Source: a virus. From it: a stretch of 24,381 bases of DNA. Below the pieces are notes generated by a model. It was given only the letters and a program-made list of their open reading frames with translations. It ran no database searches and had not been told where the DNA came from. This document shows, piece after piece, positions 16,873 to 21,404 of this stretch (position 1 is its first letter; each line of letters opens with the position of its first letter). A program made the translations under genes and the position numbers. The stretch lies in the IMG/VR virus record IMGVR_UViG_3300020281_000125, positions 1 through 24,381 of that record; one strand, 5' to 3'.

Positions 16873-17067
16873 ATGACTAGTGCAGAACATTTGAATTATA
16901 CCGAAGAAGAAATAGAAAAATTTGAAGCAGAACACGCAAAAGGAATAGTTGAGATGCATGGCTGGAAAATAAAGCCCGGTGAAATACATGCAGATAATGG
17001 AACAGTCATAGATTGGATTAACAAACATATTAAGATAATAGAGGACTTTGAAAAAAAATATGAGTAG
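16873..17067 (+). CDS. Small acidic phage protein, unknown function
   Basis: 64 residues; AGAGG before ATG. Acidic helix YTEEEIEKFEAEHAKG followed by GWKIKPGEIHADNGTVIDWI and a charged helix. It ends inside the next gene's first codons. Not recognised. Confidence 0.65.
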   Translation: MTSAEHLNYTEEEIEKFEAEHAKGIVEMHGWKIKPGEIHADNGTVIDWINKHIKIIEDFEKKYE

Positions 17068-17521
17068 TATAGTAGATGATTATTTAAATGAGAAAATTAG
17101 GAAGAAAAAAATGAGTGGTGAAAAATTAGAAATTAATGATGATGGATTAGTTACAAGCTTTGGTGATCAACCTAAAAAAGAACCAAAGGGTGAATATAAG
17201 TTTAATGAGAAAGAATATGTTGAAGAGCTATTAAGAGTTATTGATTCAACATATACAGGACACTATTCAAGAGATCATTTTCAGGCAACTGAGTTTATTA
17301 TTGATGGTGGCCACGGTACTGGTTTCTGTATCGGTAATATTATGAAGTATGCTCAAAGGTACGGCAAAAAAGGTAGTAGAGATGATGCTCGTAAAGACTT
17401 ATTAAAAGTATTACATTATGGAATCATTCAACTATTTGTACATGATTTTGAAGAAGTAGATAAGTGTGCAAGTATCGAGTATAATTACGATAATGAAATA
17501 CTGTCAAAAAATAGACAGTAA
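17060..17521 (+). CDS. DUF3310-like (SaV / gp1.7-type) protein
   Basis: 153 residues from ATG 17060, overlapping the previous gene. After a charged N-terminal 60 residues, TGHYSRDHFQATEFIIDGG, then FCIGNIMKYAQRYGKKGSRD and DDARKDLLKVLHYG match DUF3310: Tyr/His near the start, FxxGNxxKYxxRxxxKG, and a D...K helix. The same fold is part of T7 gp1.7, a nucleotide kinase. A nucleotide-metabolism role is therefore plausible but not shown. Confidence 0.8.
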   Translation: MSSIVDDYLNEKIRKKKMSGEKLEINDDGLVTSFGDQPKKEPKGEYKFNEKEYVEELLRVIDSTYTGHYSRDHFQATEFIIDGGHGTGFCIGNIMKYAQRYGKKGSRDDARKDLLKVLHYGIIQLFVHDFEEVDKCASIEYNYDNEILSKNRQ

Positions 17522-18246: not shown

Positions 18247-18396
18247 ATGGCAAATTATAGATGTACAAATTGTGGTAACGTTCAGGATGTAGAGGTTACA
18301 GAAGTAACAATTGATAACGAAGGTGAAACAACAACCGTAAAATCTTCAACCGAAAAATGTACTCAGTGTGGATGGACGCACTGGGAAGACGTATAA
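18247..18396 (+). CDS. 49-residue zinc-ribbon protein
   Basis: Starts at ATG 18247 (TAGGGAA upstream) and ends at TAA 18394-18396. RCTNCGNVQDVE and KCTQCGWTHWED form two CxxC knuckles 31 residues apart, a classic rubredoxin-like or transcription-factor zinc ribbon. It stands between two late promoters and has its own, so it is expressed alone. A role in binding RNA polymerase or DNA is possible. Too small for annotation by length alone. Confidence 0.78.
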   Translation: MANYRCTNCGNVQDVEVTEVTIDNEGETTTVKSSTEKCTQCGWTHWEDV

Positions 18397-18399
18397 ATA
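18392..18399 (+). promoter_or_regulatory. T4-type late promoter TATAAATA (GTATAAATAGTAATA)
   Basis: Same extended site as at 18214. Transcription would start about 5-8 bases downstream, right before the riboswitch aptamer at 18413. Confidence 0.85.
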
Positions 18400-18412
18400 G
18401 TAATACATTAAA

Positions 18413-18482
18413 CGTTCACCCGAAAGGGCGGAAGTAAGCGATCGCTGAAGGAACGCACCTAACCATTAACTAGGGAGGGTGA
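18413..18482 (+). promoter_or_regulatory. Glutamine riboswitch (glnA / Downstream-peptide RNA class)
   Basis: The class consensus is present almost without change: outer stem CGTTC (18413-18417) with GAACG (18451-18455), hairpin CCC-GAAA-GGG, then CGGAAGTAAG, a short AGC-GATC-GCT hairpin, and GAAGGAACGCACC. These RNAs bind L-glutamine. The expression platform is visible: TCACCC (18416-18421), part of the aptamer, is exactly complementary to GGGTGA (18477-18482), and CACC (18456-18459) to GGTG (18478-18481), both covering the ribosome site of the 18486 gene. So control of translation by glutamine is likely. Direction of the switch is not certain. Confidence 0.92.
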
Positions 18483-18485
18483 CTA

Positions 18486-18590
18486 ATGACTTACAGACCA
18501 TTTTCTTGGAAGAGGTTTTGTCAGGCTCGAAATCGTGCCAGAGTTCATAAGATATTGAACTATCGCATGCGCTATTTTGTAGCTGCCTAA
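18486..18590 (+). CDS. 34-residue basic peptide controlled by the glutamine riboswitch
   Basis: ATG 18486 after a strong site (AGGGAGGG) to TAA 18588-18590. The peptide starts MTYRPFSWKRFCQARNRARV and ends RMRYFVAA; it carries seven Arg and two Lys and no acidic residue, so its charge is about +9. It has the expected size and position of the peptides that follow Downstream-peptide RNAs. In cyanobacteria a glutamine riboswitch controls small basic inhibitors of glutamine synthetase; a similar action on host nitrogen metabolism is an inference. It overlaps the convergent gene by 4 bases. Confidence 0.82.
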   Translation: MTYRPFSWKRFCQARNRARVHKILNYRMRYFVAA

Positions 18591-18802
18591 TAAAGCTTAG
18601 TATTTTTTCCGACAGGCTTAGGGACACAAACCGCAGTGTATCTGACTAATAAATCAGCATCATTTTCTGCATTGCGGTTTGGTACCATCGGTTGTTTGTT
18701 GAGTCTTTCGGCAAAGTACAAGCAATCATTGATATTTTTAAAATACATGTCTTGACTTATTATAGCCTTTCCCATATATACCATCAATAAAAATGCGTGC
18801 AT
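18587..18802 (-). CDS. Small exported protein
   Basis: 71 residues; signal-like N-terminus MHAFLLMVYMGKAIIS, then FKNINDCLYFAERLNKQP and YTAVCVPKPVG. The DCxxFAxxLN...C pattern is the same type as in the exported protein at 4543 (DECNQY...CLP), so these may be distant relatives with one disulfide. Last gene of the minus-strand late operon; its start overlaps the stop of the 19080 gene. Function unknown. Confidence 0.65.
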   Translation of the reverse strand: MHAFLLMVYMGKAIISQDMYFKNINDCLYFAERLNKQPMVPNRNAENDADLLVRYTAVCVPKPVGKNTKLY

Positions 18803-20151: not shown

Positions 20152-20973
20152 ATGACGCAATTAATATCCCCAAAAAAGTTTACAGACACAGTTGGCCTTT
20201 TAAGGTCATTTTTTTTAGATAAAGGTTTTTTAGAAGTTCACACTCAAAATAGGTTGTCAATCTTGGCAGCTTGCGAGGATCCATTTAATGTGGCAACTTA
20301 CAAGTATGCGGGTGAAGTTTGGCCATTACCACAAACCGGACAGATGTGGCTAGAACACGAATTACTTAGTAAACCTGACTCAAAAGGTTTCTTTTGTGTA
20401 TCAACTTCATATAGACAAGAACCTAACGCAATCCCTGGAAGACACGACATTATATTTCCAATGTTTGAATTTGAAATGCCCGGTGACATATATGATCTTT
20501 CAAAAATGGAATACGAGTTAGTAGAATACTTAGGATTTAAAAAGCCAGAAGAAAAGACTTACTCAAAATGGCAAGAGTATTTTAGTTTAAACCAAGACCA
20601 AGAGCTAGTAGCAGAGCATGAAGCTAAAATGTATAATGATTTTAGTACTGCAATGATTACAGACTTTCCAGAGTTTACAAGTCCATTTTGGAATATGAGT
20701 CGTTACGAAGATGGTATAAGATCAAAAAAGATTGACGTAATATTAGGTGGTATGGAAACTATTGGATCAGCAGAAAGATCCACAAATAAAGATCAAATGA
20801 GAGATACATTTCATACGATTACTAATGGTGCATACTCTAAATTATTATTTGATTTATTTGGTAAAGAACGAGTTGAAGCAGAATTAGAAGAGTTCTTAAA
20901 GTTTGATTTCTTTCCACGAGTTGGTGGTGGGATCGGTATGACAAGAATGATTGCAGCTTTGGATCCTATGTAA
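20152..20973 (+). CDS. Class IIb aminoacyl-tRNA synthetase catalytic domain (Asn/Asp/Lys type)
   Basis: 273 residues; AAGGAAAG before ATG. Class II motifs are clear: motif 2 with FFCVSTSYRQEPNA (Arg88, Glu90) and GRHDIIFPMFEFEMPG; ILGGMETIGSAERS (residues 197-210), matching the EIIGGSQRE segment of AsnRS/AspRS; and motif 3 RVGGGIGMTRMIAAL (Arg265). The OB-fold anticodon-binding domain is absent, so the protein is the catalytic core only. Such stand-alone cores occur as AsnA, archaeal asparagine synthetase paralogues and tRNA-modifying enzymes. The adjoining Asn-anticodon tRNA favours aminoacylation, but amide synthesis is possible. Confidence 0.85.
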   Translation: MTQLISPKKFTDTVGLLRSFFLDKGFLEVHTQNRLSILAACEDPFNVATYKYAGEVWPLPQTGQMWLEHELLSKPDSKGFFCVSTSYRQEPNAIPGRHDIIFPMFEFEMPGDIYDLSKMEYELVEYLGFKKPEEKTYSKWQEYFSLNQDQELVAEHEAKMYNDFSTAMITDFPEFTSPFWNMSRYEDGIRSKKIDVILGGMETIGSAERSTNKDQMRDTFHTITNGAYSKLLFDLFGKERVEAELEEFLKFDFFPRVGGGIGMTRMIAALDPM

Positions 20974-20979
20974 AAGTTT

Positions 20980-21066
20980 TGCAGGGTGGCGGAACGGTAG
21001 ACGCGGTAGGTTGTTTCCCTATTGTCTGTGCGAGACGTGGTGGTTCGAATCCACCCCCTGCAGCCA
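20980..21066 (+). tRNA. tRNA with Asn anticodon GUU but a long variable arm (class II, Leu-like body)
   Basis: Acceptor stem TGCAGGG/CCCTGCA, T8-G9, D arm GCG/CGC with Leu-like loop (GAACGGTAGA), anticodon stem GTAGG/CCTAT with loop TTGTTTC (anticodon GTT at 21013-21015), variable arm of 16 nt with GTCT/AGAC stem, T arm GGTGG-TTCGAAT-CCACC, G73 and encoded CCA. Normal tRNA-Asn is class I with a short variable loop. U1-A72 and G73 are shared with tRNA-Asn, while D arm and variable arm are of the Leu type. Position 37 is U, which is very rare. It begins 6 nt after the stop of the synthetase-like gene. Confidence 0.9.
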
Positions 21067-21076
21067 AAAATAATCC

Positions 21077-21105
21077 TTTACAAATGTGTATTTATGTAGT
21101 ATAAT
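21077..21105 (+). promoter_or_regulatory. Sigma70-like promoter for tmRNA (TTTACA, 17 bp, TATAAT)
   Basis: -35 TTTACA 21077-21082, 17 bp, consensus -10 TATAAT 21100-21105, about 30 bases before the tmRNA acceptor piece. Confidence 0.87.
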
Positions 21106-21134
21106 ATATATTATATAACGATGAAACAAAGTAA

Positions 21135-21380
21135 AAAATTTACTGGACTCGGGGGCGGTACCCGACAGCTCCACCAAAAACACTCGATTATCGCGAGTAG
21201 TTTTGATGGGGCTGAAATAGGATCGACAGGAATTGAATAGCAATGTGGAGTTATCCGGATGTGAGCTCGGTTAATGCGAACAAAACTCTAAATGCAAACG
21301 ATAATTTTGCATCTCAGGAGTTAGCTCAAGCAGCGTAATTCCTATGCGCTAGGAGAGAGCGTGGAAACAGAATCTCTCCA
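21135..21380 (+). ncRNA. ssrA: Permuted two-piece tmRNA (alphaproteobacterial type)
   Basis: The order is inverted relative to one-piece tmRNA. First the acceptor piece: T-arm-like TCGGG-GGCGGTA-CCCGA (21149-21165), CAGCTCC, A73 and CCA ending at 21176. Then a spacer (21177-21207) with stem AAAACACTCG/CGAGT-A-GTTTT. Then the coding piece from GGGGCTGAAATAGGATCGAC (21208), whose GGGGCTG pairs with CAGCTCC. The tag reads ANDNFASQELAQAA (21294-21335) and stops at TAA; ANDNFA is typical of alphaproteobacterial tags. A 3' hairpin GGAGAGA/TCTCTCC closes the piece near 21379. It rescues stalled ribosomes and marks products for proteolysis. Outer ends are estimated. Confidence 0.93.
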
Positions 21381-21404
21381 CCAACACACACACAGGAGGA
21401 CAGT

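Follow-up and report, generated by a model that had tools for sequence, protein, structure and literature searches.

A predicted glutamine riboswitch precedes a small basic peptide gene in a virus related to marine T4-like phages

Which gene does a glutamine riboswitch control when it is carried by a phage, and what would the gene product do in the infected cell? The question arises from a virus record of 24,381 bases, hereafter the window, to whose full length all window coordinates refer. An initial annotation, made from the bases alone, had placed in it a late promoter, a glutamine aptamer and a gene for a 34-residue basic peptide, and had proposed that the peptide acts on glutamine or nitrogen metabolism.

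The aptamer, its late promoter and the peptide gene

The whole window was searched with cmscan, and a plus-strand match to RF01739, "Glutamine (glnA leader)", was found at 18411–18459. The match extended over the full length of the model (1–53 of 53) and scored 57.6 bits, above the gathering score of 35 bits; its E value was 1.7e-10 for the whole window and 3.9e-14 in a single-record search. The aptamer call of the initial annotation, which had joined the glnA and Downstream-peptide classes, was thus upheld for glnA by the covariance search. RF01704 (Downstream-peptide) was absent among the Rfam matches of the window up to E = 1, and the element is therefore type 1, not type 2. Judged from these scores, it is a glutamine aptamer of the glnA class, and the window copy would be expected to bind L-glutamine. 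Glutamine binding activates expression in both types, according to a review (PMC6316151).

The element lies in a 5′ leader, where it is followed by a covarying stem over the ribosome site and then by an ATG. Upstream of it, a T4-type late promoter box, TATAAATA, was read directly on the plus strand at 18392–18399; it overlaps the stop of a 49-codon ORF and is separated from the aptamer match by 11 nt. The exact box was present within 60 nt 5′ of the aptamer in 28 of 41 members with the same peptide family, and every one of the 41 had a relaxed box, the background rate being 0.006 per 60 nt. The late promoter that had been claimed for this position is thus a feature of the whole family.

Downstream, the aptamer match ends at 18459, 26 nt before the ATG at 18486, and GGGAGGGTG precedes this ATG. 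The plus-strand ORF of 34 codons at 18486–18590 encodes the peptide MTYRPFSWKRFCQARNRARVHKILNYRMRYFVAA, with a net charge of +9. When viral contigs were searched using only the peptide alignment, 42 further loci were obtained, and the aptamer core lay directly upstream of the peptide in every one of them; in the 20 loci tested, the upstream aptamer always exceeded the Rfam cut-off. Promoter, aptamer and peptide are obligately linked. The median dN/dS was 0.28 (31 distinct sequences, 28 codons), and M1–P5, W8, F11, A14, R15, A18 and R27 were invariant. As the loci found through the peptide alone all carry the aptamer and the dN/dS is this low, comparison of the sequences identifies the ORF as a real gene under purifying selection.

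A minus-strand ORF at 18587–18802 in the ORF list converges on the peptide gene and overlaps its stop. In most family members the peptide stop is likewise followed by a convergent gene or by no long co-directional ORF, so that an operon behind the peptide is not supported. With no gene on the same strand directly behind it, the peptide gene is the only target that the switch has nearby in the window, and the same layout in most members makes it the natural target. A scan for an intrinsic terminator 3′ of the peptide found none.

The expression platform was examined next to its relatives in a varied set of 47 leaders, taken from viral contigs, from Melnitz and from one SAR11 chromosome. In the window, the 3′ tail of the aptamer, CACCT (18456–18460, plus strand), forms the 5′ arm of a stem with 18477–18481; this 3′ arm, GGGTG, is the end of a ribosome-binding site read directly as GGGAGG running into GGGTG (18473–18481, plus strand). 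Across the leaders, the five bases 3′ of the aptamer P1 helix, mostly CACCT, CACTT or CATCT, pair around the ribosome site. Tail positions 1–5 were paired in 47, 47, 47, 46 and 46 of the 47 leaders, respectively, with C-G, T-A and A-T exchanges, the register being picked to maximise tail pairing, which inflates the absolute pairing and does not create the exchanges. At positions 3 and 4 the covariation exceeded that of all 1000 shuffles. The pairing takes forms such as GCACC/GGGTG, GCACTTT/GAAGTG, GCATCTTT/GGAGATG and CAATC/GATTG, and among 104 distinct spacers the real tails outpaired tails exchanged among loci in 200 of 200 shuffles.

The initial annotation had assigned the 5′ arm to TCACCC, pairing with GGGTGA. 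Within the window this segment (18416–18421) is indeed complementary to GGGTGA. Its homologue, however, was fully paired in 24 of the 47 leaders, against 45 of 47 for CACCU/GGGUG, where compensatory changes were present; the conserved partner is the aptamer tail, and TCACCC was rejected as the pairing arm. The tail stem was present in the folded window RNA, the lowest-energy fold of which contains no aptamer P1 stem. The folding energy of the single sequence was not unusual (z −1.44).

Proposed mechanism and role of the peptide

We propose that a late phage transcript would begin a few bases 5′ of the aptamer. While glutamine is low, the aptamer tail GCACCU would pair with GGGUG of the ribosome-binding site and translation would be blocked. 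At high glutamine, ligand binding would draw the tail into the aptamer and so free the ribosome site, allowing synthesis of the basic, helical 34-residue peptide. The leader would then switch translation ON, with this one gene as its output, and the peptide may tune host or phage metabolism while glutamine is plentiful. The ON direction, which we infer by analogy with cyanobacterial gifB, is the best reading because the layout is that of the cyanobacterial leaders, activation by glutamine is reported for both riboswitch types, and in a published crystal structure glutamine binding reportedly recruits the aptamer tail. Taken whole, a late glutamine-gated translational ON switch for a basic peptide is in our judgement the probable explanation. 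Late, glutamine-gated production of a small basic peptide had already been suggested, and aptamer, late promoter and conserved peptide all agree with it, ligand binding being deduced from the aptamer class.

What the peptide does is a separate matter. The likeliest role, by analogy only, would be to bind and damp a nitrogen-assimilation protein. Possible partners are a nitrogen enzyme, PII-type proteins, RNA or the ribosome. The predicted structure is a single helix of residues 6–33 (mean pLDDT 77) that is basic on every side; an amphipathic helix was not supported, and binding to nucleic acid or the ribosome is for this reason as open as enzyme inhibition. Such a peptide might act on RNA, the ribosome or another nucleic-acid machine of phage or host, with glutamine merely signalling translational capacity or lysis timing. 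This alternative, possible but on balance unlikely, fits the fully basic, non-amphipathic helix, the late promoter ahead of the peptide and the tmRNA that adjoins the peptide gene in some family members, whereas in hosts the same sensor sits on nitrogen genes.

Alternatively, the peptide could be a glutamine synthetase inactivating factor, like IF7 or IF17 in action, with which the phage shuts down ammonium assimilation in the host once glutamine is abundant. The cyanobacterial gif genes have the same sensor, leader design, size range and strong positive charge, and cyanophage-type relatives carry DUF4278 peptides, DUF4278 being the N-terminal part of IF17 (PMC6316151). Against this, the host group differs from cyanobacteria, and pairs of inactivating factor and glutamine synthetase are reported to be specific, as the Synechocystis factors do not inhibit the Anabaena enzyme (PMC6316151). 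Similarity of the peptide to IF7 was not beyond chance: a profile of seven IF7 cores scored the phage peptides at no more than 3.4 bits and shuffled sequences at up to 7.8 bits, and homology to IF7/IF17 was rejected. DUF4278, the IF17-type N-terminal domain, gave no Pfam match with the window peptide, and we regard this alternative as rather unlikely. The action on glutamine or nitrogen metabolism claimed by the initial annotation gained no support from any test; no IF7/IF17, DUF4278 or other family match was obtained.

Searches of the peptide against Pfam, NCBIfam and the PDB gave nothing credible, and PHROGs no match. BLAST of isolated phage records matched neither the locus nor the peptide credibly, and the peptide was found in none of 289 alphaproteobacterial genomes in a search run without a positive control. 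Kinship with other W-C peptide families, that of Melnitz included, was suggested to the eye by KIL-x-Y/F-x-R and was not significant. The peptide family is new.

Relatives, host and the target gene in Melnitz and Mosig

For most ORFs shared with known phages, the window is nearer to Melnitz and HTVC008M than to the cyanophage P-SSM7. For example, the ORF at 318–992 is 60% identical to Melnitz and 47% to P-SSM7, and that at 17048–17521 is 57% identical to Melnitz/HTVC008M and 42% to P-SSM7; several others match the HTVC008M/Melnitz group only. One exception is the ORF at 20152–20973, which matches P-SSM7 only (67% identity). It resembles a class II aminoacyl-tRNA synthetase (PF00152), with Asp/Asn ligases nearest, and is directly followed by an 87-base tRNA-Asn (together 20152–21066); the same pair occurs in P-SSM7, where it is annotated "tRNA ligase". 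The two may constitute a phage-borne Asn charging unit.

The Rfam scan also revealed a permuted two-piece tmRNA of the alphaproteobacterial model at 21073–21382, with the tag ANDNFASQELAQAA. Among 22 contigs with the window peptide family, all of them fragments, psbA was present in none and the alphaproteobacterial tmRNA in 12. psbA was confined to contigs with YRG-type or NNWQL/MALIL-type peptides, that is, the cyanophage type. On these sequence grounds, we assign the window to a marine T4-like phage nearer to the SAR11 and OM43 myophages HTVC008M and Melnitz than to P-SSM7. The contents of the fragments make a non-photosynthetic marine proteobacterium the likely host. A host outside the cyanobacteria, which had been raised as a condition for extending the range of the class, is thus most likely, but the extension itself is not new: glutamine riboswitches outside cyanophages were published in 2022 for Melnitz (host OM43) and Mosig (host SAR11) (PMC9004378), and the aptamer also occurs in SAR11, SAR86 and SAR116 chromosomes.

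In that report, the Melnitz switch was placed in the 3′ domain of ssrA and taken to control ssrA (PMC9004378). The corresponding reading of the window, in which the switch would serve the phage tmRNA or another distant gene and not the peptide, could appeal to this report and to the permuted tmRNA, which lies 2.5 kb from the switch. Yet the Melnitz aptamer starts only at 46398, past the end of the tmRNA model at 46390; the annotated end of ssrA was overextended by ARAGORN, which makes the tmRNA too long by about 46 nt in Melnitz and 47 nt in the window. The Melnitz aptamer is followed by GGGGAGAGTG, with a ribosome site, and by the ATG of an unannotated 32-codon ORF, MTLYQQWCYLKAQKEYRRRQKILMYFRIRLKG. 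In the window a convergent gene lies 3′ of the peptide, and in Mosig the switch precedes Mosig_00116, a hypothetical gene of 51 residues. Control of ssrA or a distant gene is therefore very improbable. In the Melnitz record (MZ577097.1), riboswitch and peptide gene occupy the plus strand at 46398–46593 (1899–2094 of our locus L127), where the record instead annotates a minus-strand ORF (gene 89).

Window, Melnitz and Mosig are thus three phages in which the switch is followed by a small basic peptide. Since the switch in Melnitz lies past the end of ssrA and ahead of an unannotated peptide gene, the published assignment looks wrong for Melnitz on re-reading of its sequence; the identification of a peptide gene, in place of ssrA, as the target is new. 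That the element is a decayed, functionless cargo copy is scarcely credible, for although the window peptide family is known from metagenomic contigs only, promoter, aptamer, covarying platform and purifying selection are kept across dozens of loci.

Spread, meaning and comparison with known systems

A pattern scan of IMG/VR viral contigs gave at least 119 aptamer loci. Among the matches listed, nearly all aptamers precede short ORFs, which belong to several families that show no evident relation in sequence. Every one of the 134 distinct phage peptides linked to a riboswitch had a net positive charge, with a mean of +6.7, the mean for other small ORFs with ribosome sites on the same contigs being +1.2. 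Some of the linked peptides, in cyanophage-type contigs, are DUF4278 proteins. Tandem glutamine aptamers before one small peptide gene were observed in L015, L020, L037, L059, L073, L098, L105, L111, L118, L120 and other viral contigs, an arrangement that resembles the one in host chromosomes.

A genome scan located the same aptamer in SAR11, SAR86 and SAR116 chromosomes, often in tandem among the matches listed; its targets, read by eye, were an ammonium transporter, glutamine synthetase and glutamate synthase. Glutamine switches have been described as restricted to cyanobacteria (PMC6316151), while metagenomic cases were already known (PMC2864571); the cyanobacteria-only statement no longer holds. 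Another riboswitch-linked peptide family, family B, had chromosomal homologues in 82 of 147 SAR11-family genomes, and the phage-type aptamer was present in only 2 of 118, which suggests that phages may have brought a small protein of host type under the control of a glutamine switch. In the minus strand of the Pelagibacteraceae CP.1 chromosome (L200, 7376–7662), a phage-type riboswitch and a family-B peptide lie among ordinary SAR11 genes. A near-identical element was present in a second genome (G091), and the search of 116 other SAR11-family genomes found no such riboswitch.

A different conserved leader was noticed upstream of small basic genes in SAR11 loci L369, L371–L375, L377, L381, L383 and L388. 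It comprises a hairpin such as CCGAT-CTAC-ATCGG, then TTAAAA, then GTAG (or a loop ATCGC with GCGA), and had no Rfam match up to E 0.1 in the loci scanned. It is a candidate covarying pseudoknot just 5′ of the ribosome site and possibly a new cis-regulatory RNA.

Overall, the element is real and its class known; the peptide family and the re-assigned target are new. We tentatively suggest, at somewhat short of an even chance, that a late strategy gated by glutamine is common to phages infecting marine heterotrophs (SAR11, OM43 and relatives), in which one sensor and leader design serves several small basic effectors, unrelated in sequence, acting on the nitrogen or translation economy of the host cell, one of them, family B, having SAR11 chromosomal homologues. 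The results offer a testable target gene for a group of marine-phage riboswitches that was apparently assigned to the wrong gene before, and indicate that RNA-based glutamine sensing is widespread among phages that infect abundant ocean bacteria and reaches beyond cyanophages. They also bring to light a set of small proteins, so far unstudied, from which it may be learnt how phages sense the nitrogen status of the host and steer it. Because both Melnitz and Mosig are isolates in culture, the idea is already open to testing.

Compared with known systems, the window shares its riboswitch class with Melnitz and Mosig, which are related T4-like phages with small basic ORFs after the switch; Melnitz also has an alphaproteobacterial-type tmRNA, but the peptides of 32 and 51 residues belong to families other than that of the window. 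The cyanophage S-CREM1 glnA riboswitch (PMC9964418) is likewise phage-borne with a small ORF downstream, which, unlike the window peptide, starts with the YRG motif typical of DUF4278. In S-CREM1 (L121, 2505–2776) this DUF4278-like start is fused to a C-terminal half that resembles the NNWQL peptides standing alone in other cyanophage-type contigs, which suggests modular exchange. In SAR11, SAR86 and SAR116 chromosomes, the same aptamer stands in another leader layout, mostly in tandem and about 90 nt before large proteins. RF01704 (type 2), which has no match in the window, is also a glutamine sensor before ORFs of 17–100 codons and is reported as restricted to marine picocyanobacteria (PMC6316151). 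The cyanobacterial gifB/IF17 leaders share the RF01739 model and an output of a small basic protein with the window, and the IF7/IF17-type leaders set the aptamer tail against the ribosome site in the same way (GCGCCTC/GGAGGCG there, GCACCT/GGGTG in the window). The window differs from gifB/IF17 in that its gene is a phage gene behind a late promoter, its peptide is unrelated in sequence and its host is probably not a cyanobacterium.
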